From: Acidobacteriota bacterium
GTDB lineage: Bacteria; Acidobacteriota; Holophagae; Acanthopleuribacterales; Acanthopleuribacteraceae
DNA length: 64,000 nt
Direction: 5' to 3'
NCBI GenBank assembly: GCA_020439745.1
Contig: JAGQSC010000036.1
Span: 186,001-250,000, forward strand
Shown here: piece by piece, positions 6,224 to 12,100 of the stretch
Layout of the letters: every line of letters begins with the position of its first letter
Numbering within the stretch: the stretch's first letter is position 1
Notes under the pieces: model-generated
The model's input: only the letters and a program-made list of their open reading frames with translations
The model's database searches: none
What the model was told of the DNA's origin: nothing
Translations under genes and position numbers: made by a program

Positions 6224-7330
6224 ATGGGTGGCATGACCAGTACGCGCAAACCATGGCTCCTGAAAGATTCGTTGATTTATGTCCTTTTTCTGTTGCTGCC
6301 AATGTGTGTGTACTACGCATGTGCGTCTCATGTTCTAGGCCGGCATGGATTAGGGGTCAAGATCTATTGGGCCGATTGGATTCAAAGTTACGGAACAATG
6401 ATGGTCATTTTTGGAATTGGAGCCGGTGTTTCCGGCGTCTGGGCTATCAAGTTACGCCTCACCGAAAAAGAACGATTGGACAAAATCTGGCTTCGAATTG
6501 TGAGGCCGTATGCAACGCCAAGACTGTTTCTTCGGGCAATGGTGATCATGGTTGTCGATACTTTTTTGATTGTTGTCTACCTGTCTCTGAAACAATTCAC
6601 GCCTATCCTCAATGACATGCTCTTTGATGATGCCCTAATTGCGATGGACCGTGCCATCCATTTTGGTATCGATCCCTATCCGGCTTGGATCTTGCCGTTC
6701 CCCCCCATGGTCGGCTTGATTCAAACCCTATACATTGGCTGGTTTGGATTGAAGATCCCAATATTCGCCTACTACCTGTTCAAGCCCACGGCAAAATCGG
6801 TCCATTTCTTTGCGAGCTACTTCTTACTCTTCGTTCTTGCGGGTTCGTTAGCTGTGGTTTTTCCTTCGTTGGGTCCGGTTTACGTGATTCCACACGAGCA
6901 AGTCGATGCCATTCGAGCCGATACAACTACCGAAGTCACTCAGAAGGCCGCGCTTCAATGGTATTGGAAGGCCATTCAGGACCCTTACAACTACGAGCGA
7001 AACCCCATTGGTGGATTGGCTGCATTTCCCAGTTTGCATGTGGGCATGGTGGCCTTAATGACAATCTTCTTTTGTCGCATGAGACGGCTTCGTTGGGTAT
7101 CTTTGGTTTATTTGGTGATCATTGAATTTGGGTCCGTGTATTTGGGCTGGCATTATGCATTGGATGGGTACTTCACCATCTTATTCACGTTAATCCTCGT
7201 TTGGGCATTGGGGTTGGCCTTGGAGAAAGTCAGTGGCGAGCGCATGTTGAATCCCATTCAAGAGTTGATTCGCATGGTGAGAAAGATGTTTGGCAGGGAA
7301 CACAAAGCTGCGGACGAACATTCCCGATGA
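6224..7330 (+). CDS. PAP2-superfamily membrane phosphatase/phosphotransferase
   Basis: The 368-residue polytopic membrane protein has at least six hydrophobic segments. The phosphatase signature is split as AAFPSLHVGMV (about residue 266, the S-x-H motif) and YLGWHYALDGYF (about 306, the H-x3-D motif). That is the arrangement of the PAP2_3 subgroup, which includes inositolphosphorylceramide synthase-like enzymes. A lipid phosphate or phospho-alcohol transfer reaction at the outer face of the inner membrane is likely; the substrate is open. A second ATG at 6233 preceded by GGGTGG is an equally good start. The neighbouring nfeD operon begins 33 bases downstream. Confidence 0.8.
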   Translation: MGGMTSTRKPWLLKDSLIYVLFLLLPMCVYYACASHVLGRHGLGVKIYWADWIQSYGTMMVIFGIGAGVSGVWAIKLRLTEKERLDKIWLRIVRPYATPRLFLRAMVIMVVDTFLIVVYLSLKQFTPILNDMLFDDALIAMDRAIHFGIDPYPAWILPFPPMVGLIQTLYIGWFGLKIPIFAYYLFKPTAKSVHFFASYFLLFVLAGSLAVVFPSLGPVYVIPHEQVDAIRADTTTEVTQKAALQWYWKAIQDPYNYERNPIGGLAAFPSLHVGMVALMTIFFCRMRRLRWVSLVYLVIIEFGSVYLGWHYALDGYFTILFTLILVWALGLALEKVSGERMLNPIQELIRMVRKMFGREHKAADEHSR

Positions 7331-7363: not shown

Positions 7364-7819
7364 ATGAACTCGGTCCTGATCTGGATCCTCGTCGGCTTGG
7401 TTCTGGTGATCCTGGAATTCTTTTTGCCCGGCATGGTTACCGTATTTTTTGGGCTCTCTGCCTTTGTGGTGGCTGGTTTGGTATGGCTTGGCCTTGTGGA
7501 CTCCTGGATGGGCATGATTGGGTCGTGGGTTCTTGTGTCTGCCGTCATGATCTTAGGCTTACGCCGACTATTGGCTCGGTTTATTGCAGGCGATCAAGAG
7601 ACAGGCAGCGTGGATGAGGACGAAGACGCCTATGGACAAGTGGTCGAAGTCGTTTCAATCAACGATGCTGATGGCTCTTCGGGCCGAATCAGGTTTAGAG
7701 GTGCTGATTGGGATGCTGAGTCCATGAATGGATCTCTACGTGAAGGTGGATTCGCCCGAATCGTGTCGCGTGCCAATTTGAAATGGATGGTGGAACCCTA
7801 TCAGGAATTGGAGGAATAG
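7364..7819 (+). CDS. NfeD-family membrane protein
   Basis: The protein has 151 residues. Three closely spaced hydrophobic segments (about 1-75) are followed by a C-terminal OB-fold-like beta domain (about 90-145; GRIRFRGADWDAESMNGSLREGG is typical of NfeD1b/YbbK partners). NfeD proteins are encoded with stomatin/SPFH proteins and are thought to modulate their membrane assemblies. Here the next gene, an SPFH protein, begins directly after the stop codon with no gap, so translational coupling is likely. This is the first gene of a six-gene run to 12100. Confidence 0.9.
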   Translation: MNSVLIWILVGLVLVILEFFLPGMVTVFFGLSAFVVAGLVWLGLVDSWMGMIGSWVLVSAVMILGLRRLLARFIAGDQETGSVDEDEDAYGQVVEVVSINDADGSSGRIRFRGADWDAESMNGSLREGGFARIVSRANLKWMVEPYQELEE

Positions 7820-8737
7820 ATGTTCTTTACGCTTGTCATCATTATTGGTGTGATTTGGTTTTTCTTGTCCAAAACGGCGGTGATTGTGCCCACCCGTTTG
7901 GCATGCGTCAAAGAGCGACTGGGCAAGTTTAACGCGGTGCTGGAGCCTGGTTTCCACGTTTTGATCCCTTTTGTTGATCGCATACATTACCGCCACGAGA
8001 TGAGAGAACAAGTTTTTGATGTGCCGCCTCAGAGCTGCATCACTAGAGACAACATTCAGGTTAAGGTGGACGGACTTGTCTACATTAAGGTCATGGACCC
8101 GGTGAAAGCATCGTATGGCATTGAAAACTACGCCTTGGCTGCGATTAACCTCGCCCAAACCACCATGCGTTCTGAAATAGGCAAATTGACGTTGGATAAC
8201 TCATTTCATCAACGCGAGGCATTGAATCAATCCGTGGTCGCCGAAATTGACAAGGCGGCCGACCCATGGGGCATCAAGGTGTTGCGTTACGAAATCATGA
8301 ATATTACACCCTCAGACCATGTGATCCATACCTTGGAGAAGCAGATGGAAGCCGAACGGGAGCGCCGTGCCGATGTCACCATTGCGACGGCCCAAAAAGA
8401 GGCTGTGTCTACGATTTCGGAAGGTGAGCGCTTGGAGATGATTAACGTATCGCAGGGCGAACGTCAGCGGCGTATCAATGAAGCAGAAGGTAAAGCCATG
8501 GCCATTACCATAGTGGCTGAAGCGACTGCGGAAGGCGTGGCGCGAGTCGGCCAGGCTATCCAGCAGCCGGGCGGTGCTGAAGCCGTCAAGATGCGGATTG
8601 TGGATCAGTACCTGCAAGAGATGGGACGGGTGATTCAAAGCGCCAATGTAGATGTGGTGCCTGTCGAACTGGCCAACATCAAAGGCTTTTTCGAAGGTGT
8701 TGGACGTGTGTCCACGAACATTGCGGGTCAGGGTTAA
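7820..8737 (+). CDS. SPFH/Band 7 (stomatin-like) protein, paralogue 1
   Basis: The protein has 305 residues. An N-terminal membrane anchor (residues 1-20) is followed by the SPFH domain (about 22-180: VPTRLACVKERLGKFNAVLEPG, VPPQSCITRDNIQVKVDG) and a coiled-coil rich in Glu/Ala/Arg (about 185-240). This matches the QmcA/stomatin family that pairs with NfeD. Such proteins form oligomeric membrane microdomain scaffolds and often partner with proteases. It abuts nfeD and is followed 11 bases later by a second SPFH gene of nearly identical length. Confidence 0.92.
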   Translation: MFFTLVIIIGVIWFFLSKTAVIVPTRLACVKERLGKFNAVLEPGFHVLIPFVDRIHYRHEMREQVFDVPPQSCITRDNIQVKVDGLVYIKVMDPVKASYGIENYALAAINLAQTTMRSEIGKLTLDNSFHQREALNQSVVAEIDKAADPWGIKVLRYEIMNITPSDHVIHTLEKQMEAERERRADVTIATAQKEAVSTISEGERLEMINVSQGERQRRINEAEGKAMAITIVAEATAEGVARVGQAIQQPGGAEAVKMRIVDQYLQEMGRVIQSANVDVVPVELANIKGFFEGVGRVSTNIAGQG

Positions 8738-8748
8738 GGGAGGCGGAG

Positions 8749-9672
8749 ATGGGTGTTATTGACAATATTTCCGCGTTTGTTCTCGCGCTCATGGCGCTAT
8801 GGATCATGGTTAAGTTGATCAAATCGGTACGAATCGTGCCACAAAGGTATGCTTATGTCGTGGAACGTTTGGGCAGGTACCATGCCACCTTGAATTCCGG
8901 CTTTCACATCCTAATTCCGTTTCTGGACAAGGTCGCTTTTCATTTGGACCTTAAAGAAGAAACATTGGAGGTGCCACCTCAAGAATGCTTCACGGCCGAC
9001 GAAGTTCAGGTGATGGTGGATGGCGTCATATACATCAGTGTGACTGACCCCGTTCGTGCATCGTATGGCATCGTGAACTACCGTCAGGCGGCGATGTTGC
9101 TCGCCCAGACTACAACCCGCAGTGTCATGGGCCAAATACCTCTGGATCAATCCTTCGAAGAGCGCGAGTTCATTAGCGCAAAAGTGGTTGAGACATTGGA
9201 GCAAACGGGTCTGGAATGGGGCATTCGGGTTCACCGTTATGAGATCAAGAACATTGAACCGCCTGTCTCGGTGCACCGATCCATGGAGAAACAAGTTACG
9301 GCAGAACGGGACCGCAAAGCGATTGTGGCGAAAGCTCAGGGCGATGCTCAGTCGAGAGTGAATCGCTCAGAGGGCTTGCGCAATGAGTTGGTCAACCGAT
9401 CGCTGGGTGACAAACAGAAACGAATCAATGAGGCACAGGGGCTCGCCAGTGAGATACGAGCCATTGCGGATGCAACGGCCAGTTCGATTGAGGTTTTGGC
9501 TCGAGCATTGAGTACGCCCGGAGGGATGGAAGCGATGAAACTCCAATTGACCGAACAGGCGATAGAGAACGTGGGTAAACTGGCCGATAGCGAAACACGT
9601 GTCTTGTTGCCAGCAGATCTGTTGGCCATTGACGAGTTGCTCAGTCGAATCGGATTGCCATTGCCGCGCTGA
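8749..9672 (+). CDS. SPFH/Band 7 (stomatin-like) protein, paralogue 2
   Basis: The protein has 307 residues with the same layout as its upstream neighbour: an anchor, an SPFH domain (VPQRYAYVVERLGRYHATLNSG; VPPQECFTADEVQVMVDG) and a coiled-coil (RNELVNRSLGDKQKRINEAQG). The two are clear tandem paralogues that have diverged along their length, so they may form hetero-oligomers. The stop codon overlaps the start of the sigma-54 activator by one base (TGATG), which suggests translational coupling between a membrane scaffold and a transcription activator. Ribosome binding site: GGGAGGCGGAG before 8749. Confidence 0.92.
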   Translation: MGVIDNISAFVLALMALWIMVKLIKSVRIVPQRYAYVVERLGRYHATLNSGFHILIPFLDKVAFHLDLKEETLEVPPQECFTADEVQVMVDGVIYISVTDPVRASYGIVNYRQAAMLLAQTTTRSVMGQIPLDQSFEEREFISAKVVETLEQTGLEWGIRVHRYEIKNIEPPVSVHRSMEKQVTAERDRKAIVAKAQGDAQSRVNRSEGLRNELVNRSLGDKQKRINEAQGLASEIRAIADATASSIEVLARALSTPGGMEAMKLQLTEQAIENVGKLADSETRVLLPADLLAIDELLSRIGLPLPR

Positions 9673-11120
9673 TGGCAGAACTATCCTCACAAGAACGCGA
9701 GTTGCTGGCTCTGGTTGGCCGGGCTGCATTCGCCAACCCGTTTAGTGGGGAACGCCAGGACTTGGATACCCGCATTGCTTCTGCCAAGGTGCGCCGAGCT
9801 GAAAAACCCATCGTGGGTGCGATACATGAGTTGCGTCGTCAATACGAACTGATGGACCAACAAAAGCGTGCTCATCGAAACGCCTACAGCTTGGCGAAAG
9901 ATAAAAAGTTGTTTGAGAATTTTGCCTTGTTCTTGGTGTTTCATGAACATATTGAGGACTTGGACCAATTGATCAAAAGACAAATGGCTCAACCCGACCG
10001 ACCGCACACTGTGGGATTTGCGGCTCGTATGTTGGACCGCTTGAAGTCCCTGGGATTCAATCCCGACGAGTCGGCTCGATTCCTGGGCGTTTTTTATCAA
10101 CTGAGGCGTGCGTACTTCTTTATCAACCACGCGTTAGTAGGGGCGAGCAAGTGCATGATTGCACTGCGTTGTCAGTTATGGAACAGCGTCTTTACTCACG
10201 ACATGGACCTTTACAACACTTGGTTTTGGAACAAGATGGAAGATTTTTCCACTTTGATTGTGGGCGAAACCGGGACCGGTAAAGGCACGGCTGCTGCAGC
10301 GATCGGGCGATCTGCGTTTATCCCCTACGACGCAAGCATTGACCGTTTCAAAGAGAGTTTTGCCAGTGCGTTTACGGCCGTCAACTTAACCCAATATCCC
10401 GAGAGCCTTTTGGAGGCCGAACTGTTTGGATACAGGAAAGGTGCATTTACTGGCGCTGTTGAGTCTCACACGGGTTTGCTAGCCCGATGTAGCGCCTATG
10501 GGGCGGTCTTGCTGGATGAAATTGGGGACGTGTCCCGCGATGTCCAAGTGAAGTTGTTAAAGGTGCTTGAGGAGCGCAGCTTTACGCCGGTAGGTAGTCA
10601 CGAAATCCAACAGTTTCGGGGTCGCATCATCGCGGCCACCCATCAAGACCTCCAGCAGCTGCGTGCGGAAGGGCGGTTTAGAGAGGATTTTTATTACCGC
10701 CTCAGTTCGGACGTCATTCAAATACCGCCTCTACGGCAACGCATTTCGGAAGACAAGAACGAGCTTGAGCTCTTGCTATCTCATATTGTGACCAGATTAG
10801 CGGGCGAGCCCAGCCCACACTTGGTGGATCTGTGCATGTCGACGTTGAAGCGCGATGTGGGAATGACCTATGAGTGGCCCGGAAACGTACGTGAAGTGGC
10901 TCAAGCTGTTCGACGCATTGTGCTCACATGTGAATACATGCCATCACGTGTCCATCCTGAATCGCCATCTGTGGTTCCAGACATGAACGCAACAGCCGTG
11001 TTGGGCTCTTATGCAGCGGCCCTTTATGAGCGCTACGGTTCTTATCAAAAAGTGGCACATGTGATGGAATTAGATCGCCGCACGGTGAAACGATACATCG
11101 ATATCTATAAGAAAAAATGA
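9672..11120 (+). CDS. Sigma-54-dependent transcriptional activator (AAA+), novel N-terminal domain
   Basis: The protein has 482 residues. The N-terminal ~185 residues are helical with no receiver, GAF or FHA signature that I can see. The AAA+ domain follows: Walker A GETGTGKG at 198-205, the sigma-54-contacting GAFTGA loop at 257-262, Walker B VLLDEIGD at about 279-286 and the Arg-finger region FREDFYYRL at 337-344. A FIS-type helix-turn-helix closes the protein (about 455-480, KVAHVMELDRRTVKRYI). It should activate sigma-54 promoters in response to a signal read by the N-terminal region. Co-transcription with NfeD and SPFH genes suggests an envelope signal, reminiscent of PspF logic. Confidence 0.9.
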   Translation: MAELSSQERELLALVGRAAFANPFSGERQDLDTRIASAKVRRAEKPIVGAIHELRRQYELMDQQKRAHRNAYSLAKDKKLFENFALFLVFHEHIEDLDQLIKRQMAQPDRPHTVGFAARMLDRLKSLGFNPDESARFLGVFYQLRRAYFFINHALVGASKCMIALRCQLWNSVFTHDMDLYNTWFWNKMEDFSTLIVGETGTGKGTAAAAIGRSAFIPYDASIDRFKESFASAFTAVNLTQYPESLLEAELFGYRKGAFTGAVESHTGLLARCSAYGAVLLDEIGDVSRDVQVKLLKVLEERSFTPVGSHEIQQFRGRIIAATHQDLQQLRAEGRFREDFYYRLSSDVIQIPPLRQRISEDKNELELLLSHIVTRLAGEPSPHLVDLCMSTLKRDVGMTYEWPGNVREVAQAVRRIVLTCEYMPSRVHPESPSVVPDMNATAVLGSYAAALYERYGSYQKVAHVMELDRRTVKRYIDIYKKK

Positions 11121-11129
11121 GGAGAAGAG

Positions 11130-11429
11130 ATGAGTAAACCCAGTGTGATATGCAAGATTCCCGGTGACTGGAACCTGACCGAGTTCATCTGGCTCTTAGA
11201 CGCTCAGCCACCTGCTTTGACCCTGCGATTTCGTGGCGACGATGGGGTGCTTGGTCTCAAATTCATGCGTCCTCATGGCCTGGACAGTGCCTTTGAGTTG
11301 AGGGACTTTCATAGCGATGTCACGGTATTTGATATGACCGATTGTGGTGGGCATGCCAATGTGAAGGTTCATTTTTGGACTGAAGACTGTGAACAGGAAT
11401 TCTGGGCCGAACGTGTGGATGAAGTCTGA
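11130..11429 (+). CDS. Conserved-looking 99-residue protein of unknown function
   Basis: This 99-residue soluble acidic protein has a strong Shine-Dalgarno (GAGGAGAAG) just before ATG 11130. There is no signal peptide or membrane segment. It sits 9 bases after the sigma-54 activator, and its last base is the first base of the GST start codon, so it is embedded in the operon. The sequence has beta-rich stretches (ALTLRFRGDD, NVKVHFWTEDC) and two cysteines in the C-terminal half. I do not recognise a family. Its position suggests an accessory role in the NfeD/SPFH/activator system. Confidence 0.75.
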   Translation: MSKPSVICKIPGDWNLTEFIWLLDAQPPALTLRFRGDDGVLGLKFMRPHGLDSAFELRDFHSDVTVFDMTDCGGHANVKVHFWTEDCEQEFWAERVDEV

Positions 11430-12100
11430 TGGGTATTGTCGTACACCATCTGGAACGGTCGCGATCCCATCGGGTGCTTTGGCTGCTGGAAGAACTGAAT
11501 GTTCCTTATGAACTGAAGACGTATCAACGCCACCCAGAGACCATGTTGGCGCCGCCGGAACTGCGCCATATTCACCCTTTGGGCAAGTCTCCGATTGTGG
11601 TGGATGGCGATGATGTGCTTGCCGAATCGGGCGCCATTATCAGTTATCTGGTGGATCGACATGGTCGTGCGCTGAAGCCAGCTGACAACACGCCACAGGC
11701 CCTACAATTCAACTATTGGTTGCACTATGCCGAAGGGTCCTTGATGCCTGTGCTCCTTGTAAAGCTCATCTTTACGCGGCTGGAGCAAGCGCCAGCTCCC
11801 TTTTTCATCAAACCAATCATGAAGGGCATTTCGAGGAAAGTTCATGGTGCATACATCGATCCGCAAACCGTGCTTCACCTGGATCACATCGAGAGCCATC
11901 TGCAGAGAAACAAGTGGTTTGCGGGTGAAATGTTTAGTGCGGCTGATATCCAAATGAGTTACCCCTTGTTGGCGGCGACCGACCGGCTAGATTTATCGGC
12001 GCGCGCTTCGATAGCTGAATTTCTGCGGCGTATCAAAGATCGGCCGGCATTCAAACGAGCCATTGAAGTGGGTGGTCCCGTATCACTTTCTGGAGACTGA
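11429..12100 (+). CDS. Glutathione S-transferase family protein
   Basis: The protein has 223 residues. The N-terminal thioredoxin-like half contains HHLERSRSHRVLWLLEELNVPYEL, then HPLGKSPIVVDGDDVLAESGAIISYL, the glutathione-binding cis-Pro and ESGAI motifs of GSTs. The C-terminal half is all-helical, with the FSAADIQMSYPL capping box. It starts with one-base overlap on the upstream gene. GSTs of this type conjugate or reduce electrophiles in the cytoplasm. Here it closes the six-gene run, which is consistent with a stress-related operon. Confidence 0.9.
   Translation: MGIVVHHLERSRSHRVLWLLEELNVPYELKTYQRHPETMLAPPELRHIHPLGKSPIVVDGDDVLAESGAIISYLVDRHGRALKPADNTPQALQFNYWLHYAEGSLMPVLLVKLIFTRLEQAPAPFFIKPIMKGISRKVHGAYIDPQTVLHLDHIESHLQRNKWFAGEMFSAADIQMSYPLLAATDRLDLSARASIAEFLRRIKDRPAFKRAIEVGGPVSLSGD

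Follow-up and report, generated by a model that had tools for sequence, protein, structure and literature searches.

The locus described here lies in a window of 64,000 nucleotides (contig JAGQSC010000036.1, positions 186,001 to 250,000, assembly GCA_020439745.1) from the 5.1 Mb draft genome of an Acidobacteriota bacterium of the Acanthopleuribacteraceae, and comprises six closely packed forward-strand genes, among them one for a sigma-54 activator (bacterial enhancer-binding protein). In the two genomes that represent the genus, this activator is locked into an operon with one NfeD and two SPFH genes. The block begins with a short form of nfeD (7364..7819), whose 151-residue product joins N-terminal membrane segments to a C-terminal OB-type NfeD domain (Pfam PF01957, 37.1 bits; cut-off 29.1). 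The next base opens the first of two SPFH/stomatin-type genes, SPFH1 (7820..8737, 305 residues; Band_7, PF01145, 118.9 bits with a cut-off of 23.6; Band_7_C, 42.6 bits), and SPFH2 follows (8749..9672, 307 residues; Band_7, 112.6 bits); the two proteins share 43% identity. The activator gene (9672..11120, 482 residues; Sigma54_activat, PF00158, 149.8 bits; cut-off 20.2) overlaps the end of SPFH2 in a TGATG at 9670-9674. Behind it lie a gene for a 99-residue protein without a family (11130..11429) and, through a second TGATG at 11427-11431, one for a 223-residue glutathione S-transferase (GST)-like protein (11429..12100; GST_N, 56.1 bits). A preliminary description of this DNA had reported six reading frames separated by gaps of 0 bases (nfeD to SPFH1), 11 (SPFH1 to SPFH2) and 9 (activator to the 99-residue protein), with two TGATG overlaps, and the coordinates agree with it exactly; the family of the GST-like gene had not been named there.

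Comparison with the sole other genome of the genus (G001; Acidobacteriota, Holophagae-like) delimits the conserved part of this block. The order NfeD-SPFH-SPFH-activator is kept in G001, with identities of 51%, 79%, 76% and 68%, respectively, as is the overlap between SPFH2 and the activator gene, and because the first four genes keep their order the arrangement goes beyond chance. The surroundings differ: by reading of the sequences, G001 has no PAP2 gene upstream and has a DUF1295-like membrane protein and a PAAR-like protein downstream. The GST-like gene is not at the corresponding place in G001, and the 99-residue protein gave no match in Pfam, NCBIfam, PHROG or PADLOC and no homologue among 40 relatives, the same-genus genome included; we regard both genes as local additions. 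The six-gene operon proposed earlier therefore stands for its first four genes, conserved in the genus, and not for its last two. Five other genomes of the family lack an orthologue of the activator and gave AAA+ matches only (one of them, G002, has an SPFH protein at 34% identity), and on present sampling the linkage is thus specific to the genus. Nor were SPFH neighbours found at any distant homologue of the activator.

Two observations concern the flanks. In the window, a gene for a PAP2_3-type phosphatase (6224-7330; 80.3 bits) stops 33 bases before nfeD and could be co-transcribed with it; a different gene occupies this side in G001, with about 390 bp between it and nfeD. Downstream of the activator in G001 (locus L039), a small protein resembling PAAR-like proteins of the DUF4150 type is followed further on by possible secretion-system genes.

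Pairs of NfeD and SPFH genes were already cited as known in the preliminary description, and such operons are indeed common (PMC13086221). The present locus shares their arrangement, with a gene for an NfeD C-terminal domain followed by a Band_7 gene at a gap of 0 bases, and like stomatin/QmcA operons it places a short NfeD directly ahead of an SPFH protein; the solved protein nearest to SPFH1 in a search of PDB sequences is QmcA (8z5g, 173.4 bits). It departs from these operons in having SPFH as two paralogues and, in translational overlap with the second, a sigma-54 activator. The neighbourhood of an SPFH gene and such an activator has a precedent in Pseudomonas aeruginosa PA14, whose rtc locus includes the SPFH gene paFlo8 alongside rtcA, rtcB and the sigma-54 activator gene rtcR (PMC13086221).

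The activator and its N-terminal domain

The activator contains an AAA+ sigma-54 interaction domain at about residues 155-421 (10134..10934; Pfam match at residues 190-346, lid at 362-421), in which a short insertion (about residues 172-190) precedes the Walker A motif at 10263-10286. Walker A (GETGTGKG), Walker B (LDEIG) and the GAFTGA motif of loop 1 (residues 257-262, 10440..10457, read from the sequence) are all intact, the last as stated in the preliminary description. A predicted C-terminal helix-turn-helix (HTH; GSYQKVAHVMELDRRTVKRYI; about residues 451-478, 11022..11105) bears the recognition helix LDRRTVKxY conserved in the family described below; the segment LDRRTVKRYI is conserved and helices are predicted there, with a Pfam HTH score that is not significant. 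Both genomes encode RpoN (PF04552; E 1.5e-67 in the source genome and 5.2e-68 in G001), and the source genome has about 20 other strong sigma-54 activators besides. Judged by its sequence, the protein is almost certainly a sigma-54 activator.

Among characterised AAA+ relatives in NCBIfam and PADLOC, RtcR gives the best scores for the AAA+ part (183.7 bits with NCBIfam, residues 193-421; 213.7 with PADLOC RtcR_PspF2), compared with 151.5 for PspF. Neither assignment as an equivalog holds: the RtcR score is far short of its cut-off of 650 and the match is restricted to the AAA+ part, and the PspF score is below 443.55, the N-terminus being longer by about 150 residues that are predicted to form a domain. 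RtcR, which controls an RNA-repair operon and has a CARF-AAA+-HTH architecture, shares the common layout of AAA+ motor and HTH; it differs in that the N-terminal domain of the window activator is predicted to be all helical and is unrelated by profile to CARF, and no RNA-repair genes accompany it. The PspF/Psp response resembles the locus in pairing a sigma-54 activator linked to membrane stress with effectors associated with the membrane, whereas PspF has no N-terminal regulatory domain and no PspA-family gene is present among the genes called around the operon. The earlier label 'PspF-type' is therefore unsupported, as the AAA+ part scores higher with RtcR and PspF lacks such an N-terminal domain.

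The N-terminal domain (about residues 1-152, 9672..10127) carries the signatures NPF (residues 22-24) and Q-x-R-R-A-[FY]-x-F (143-150). An AlphaFold2 model built from six aligned sequences predicts nine helices over residues 1-194 (pLDDT 82.6, pTM 0.79); a model of the full-length activator was poor (pLDDT 58) and was not used. We place the border of the domain near residue 152, with the AAA+ domain probably starting at about 155, because residues 155-190 (L-x-G-x-S-x-x-M-x-x-LR-x-x-LWN-x-VFT) resemble an AAA+ start followed by a short insertion in an alignment of 36 members. Searches of Pfam, NCBIfam, PHROGs, PADLOC and PDB sequences gave nothing significant for the domain, and Foldseek comparison of the AlphaFold model with the PDB and BFVD gave no match with E below 0.001. 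These results bear out the description of the N-terminal region (given earlier as about 185 residues) as unrecognised, and they brought no match to a known unrelated sensor, an outcome that had been named as one that would speak against the earlier interpretation. A convincing structural match to the modelled domain is lacking, yet novelty of the fold does not follow. Two candidates were rejected: the Ras-GAP domain of neurofibromin (best VIA-align 2 Z 4.4, rmsd 5.5), a similarity that is meaningless for a helical bundle, and the RelA/SpoT-like TIGR04562, to which two members matched weakly (E 0.0026), with an hhalign probability of 1% over 26 columns. TIGR04562 sequences, unrelated to the N-terminal domain, are frequent in genomes of a sister family in the class (L166-L177).

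An activator family beside lipid and envelope genes

The more interesting result is the family to which the activator belongs, which combines a domain that no search recognised, a predicted DNA site and neighbours among lipid genes. A single scan of species genomes, the one that covered the Pseudomonadota, detected homologues along the full length, 45-48% identical, in Desulfosarcina and its relatives. Using a profile of the N-terminal domain, we surveyed 297 Acidobacteriota and 297 Desulfobacterota genomes. Positives were obtained in 13 of the Acidobacteriota and 21 of the Desulfobacterota genomes, nearly always as a single copy, and in matches with a complete open frame the N-terminal domain is always joined to AAA+ and HTH parts. 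GxFTGA and the HTH are retained in nearly all 40 loci assembled, and the window activator matches the family profile over the full N-terminal length, with AAA+ and HTH behind (36-row alignment). In the tree, the window and G001 proteins form a well-supported, long-branched pair inside a mixed clade, and the genomic context of the family shifts between clades. Loci L097-L100 and L122 represent a divergent sister subfamily with a longer N-terminal domain. A scan of viral contigs gave no relative of the activator, a scan of a plasmid collection gave AAA+ matches only, with no record covering 80%, and we found no description of the family in the open-licence literature. Marked by its N-terminal domain, the activator family is patchily distributed and, as far as these searches show, previously undescribed.

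Many relatives are divergently oriented to a neighbouring gene, and in some of the loci a promoter is predicted in the space between. Upstream regions were scored with a weighted -24/-12 consensus, with a threshold of at least 17 of 20. Of 36 such regions, 14 reach this value on the strand that points at the divergent gene, where control stretches would lead one to expect 2.1, and one of the 36 does so on the opposite strand. Between the regulator start and the divergent sigma-54-like promoter lies a conserved palindrome, CATRCA-N5-TGTAYA, often with TGTCA about 16 bases on; it is seen upstream of the regulator in L109, L110, L111, L116, L118, L119 and others, an example from the divergent region of L110 or L109 being CATGCACAAAATGTACAT. 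When each clade was left out in turn, the upstream site in 14 of 24 clades outscored at least 99% of control stretches. The pattern is that expected of an upstream activating site, to which the regulators are predicted to bind.

The genes beside the activator in the 40 family loci have a recurrent lipid and envelope theme. Proteins of the MFS-acyltransferase type (LplT-PlsC, often with the AMP-binding Aas part) are encoded near the activator in ten loci, often directly divergent from it. Three loci have a very large PfaA-type synthase with ketoacyl synthase and nitronate monooxygenase-like domains, three have FabD/KASIII/SDR/KAS sets, and two have a monogalactosyldiacylglycerol (MGDG) synthase together with an amidohydrolase. 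DUF5671 occurs in four or five loci and VIT-VWA or rhomboid proteins in three; further neighbours are DUF212 (PAP2-like), APP1 phosphatidate phosphatase and DUF2339. None of the listed lipid and envelope families was found in the flanks of 36 other sigma-54 activators from the same phylum, a one-sided and biased control in that its queries were drawn from the family loci; the lipid theme therefore rests mainly on recurrence in separate clades. Two of these neighbours deserve separate mention. The PfaA-type synthase lies divergent from the activator in L042, L101 and L106 and may be a polyunsaturated fatty acid or secondary-lipid synthase under sigma-54 control, and the DUF5671 membrane protein adjoins the activator in the Acidobacteriota loci L090, L093, L094, L095 and L098, in both the main and the divergent subfamilies.

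A general link between sigma-54 activators and phospholipid and envelope synthesis was drawn in an earlier survey, which proposed sigma-54 as a controller of the bacterial exterior, phospholipid synthesis included (Francke et al. 2011, PMC3162934); in the passages of that survey consulted, no mention was found of SPFH, stomatin or acyltransferase genes or of the N-terminal-domain family.

Control of the operon and a possible role in membrane sensing

The recognition helix of the window activator is nearly unchanged with respect to the family. Even so, the combination of family site and divergent sigma-54 promoter, found in the majority of other clades, was not found at the window activator. 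The highest sigma-54-like score within the 420 bp that precede nfeD is 16.0 (at -220, inside the PAP2 gene), and the corresponding value in G001 is 15; control stretches of 420 bp have a median best score of 15 and a 90th percentile of 16. The search for -24/-12 promoters suggested in the preliminary description thus yielded none above chance upstream of the operon. A genome-wide search of both genomes for family sites with a sigma-54 promoter gave no convincing promoter: promoter-like scores of at least 17 occurred at three of 30 inspected loci, which by our estimate is about chance. Upstream of the LplT-like gene of the source genome (C33:92299) neither family site nor promoter was found. 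One candidate target, within chance expectation, is L186 (G000:C2:368685), where TGGCATCTTTTCTGCA stands 61 bases beyond a one-mismatch family site, ahead of an 83-residue zinc-ribbon-like reading frame.

Our preferred explanation, to which we give a probability of about one half, is that a membrane-scaffold operon in this genus took in an activator of a separate, undescribed family, and that this activator is a switch that senses the state of the membrane or its lipids. The locus would be a stomatin-type scaffold operon, with a short NfeD and two SPFH proteins, that acquired a sigma-54 activator. Members of the family would recognise CATRCA-N5-TGTAYA close to the start of their own gene and activate a sigma-54 promoter that faces a head-to-head target, and the targets of the relatives would be largely membrane-lipid and envelope genes. 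The N-terminal domain may sense membrane or lipid state, directly or via a partner, whereupon the AAA+ hexamer would be released or assembled and repair or remodelling genes switched on. Since NfeD, SPFH and the activator are produced from one operon in this genus, the N-terminal domain has a candidate partner in the SPFH/NfeD assembly, which may otherwise simply be a co-regulated effector. The sequences themselves establish the family, the intact motor motifs, the presence of RpoN, the four-gene block and, in relatives, the predicted promoters and sites; what we infer is which signal is sensed, that SPFH is a partner and which genes are targeted in this genus. A membrane role is supported indirectly, since relatives with the same N-terminal domain adjoin lipid and envelope genes, and we consider the chances about even that the signal concerns the membrane. 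A membrane-related role, which had been read from linkage as a membrane-stress function, is to this extent plausible; the self-contained circuit proposed with it is unsupported.

Several points weigh against this explanation. The survey of gene order that had been suggested as a check found the order conserved in the other genome of the genus and not more widely: across the roughly 600 genomes of Acidobacteriota and Desulfobacterota that were searched, SPFH and the activator are linked in this one genus only. Upstream of the operon, the window and G001 alike show no sigma-54 promoter and no site of the family type, and the frequency of the family site in the two genomes equals that of the reversed control pattern (40 versus 43 in the source genome, 53 versus 57 in G001). 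The promoter score is a hand-weighted consensus, and it is the position of the N-terminal domain that suggests its sensor role. Finally, radical SAM, TPR, DUF362, amidohydrolase and VIT-VWA proteins are also among the family neighbours, and for these a lipid role is not evident.

The confinement to one genus, the change of family context from clade to clade and the lack of a local sigma-54 promoter would also be expected if the activator had come to lie behind nfeD and the SPFH genes by chance, borrowing their promoter and acting on targets elsewhere that are unrelated to SPFH. Such hitch-hiking seems to us rather improbable, as both genomes preserve the stop-start overlap with SPFH2 although all that lies behind the activator differs between them, and as SPFH suits the membrane theme seen among the other neighbours of the family.

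The preliminary description had instead proposed a self-contained membrane-stress circuit. Spelled out, the activator would turn on its own NfeD-SPFH operon via sigma-54 under membrane stress, and the SPFH and NfeD proteins would feed back on it. The overlapping, co-directional genes and the conservation of the block in the genus would suit this arrangement, and the Psp system, with PspF and PspA, illustrates how an effector associated with the membrane can hold an activator in check (PMC6003685, PMC3128695). The upstream scores, on the other hand, are such as a typical 420-bp stretch reaches, no upstream activating site was found, and PspF-type and other family loci usually stand divergent from their target, not as the last conserved gene of the target operon. 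With no promoter above chance, no family site and no enrichment of the site in the genomes, nothing indicates that the activator switches on the operon in which it lies; any regulation of this operon by it is doubtful, and the full circuit with feedback is unlikely. That the operon is an offshoot of rtc loci is very improbable, the shared presence of an SPFH gene and the better AAA+ scores with RtcR models being outweighed by a match far below the cut-off and confined to the AAA+ part, a predicted all-helical N-terminal domain in place of the Rossmann-type fold of CARF, and the lack of rtcA and rtcB among the genes around the operon.

Returning to the membrane-sensing explanation, the place of the activator in a membrane-organising operon suggests that it may take part in the cell's response to membrane state. 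More tentatively, and with the odds somewhat against it, the family may form a switch for membrane state and lipid homeostasis across phyla, governing lysophospholipid re-acylation and the synthesis of special fatty acids and glycolipids, with its sensor coupled in this genus to the NfeD and SPFH proteins of the same operon. To our knowledge, the control of membrane lipids in Desulfobacterota and Acidobacteriota is largely unexplored. If the family reading is true, it would equip the lipid genes of these two phyla with a defined regulator and with a DNA site and target promoters, the latter two predicted, and it would offer a testable molecular link from SPFH/NfeD membrane scaffolds, whose role is debated, to transcription.

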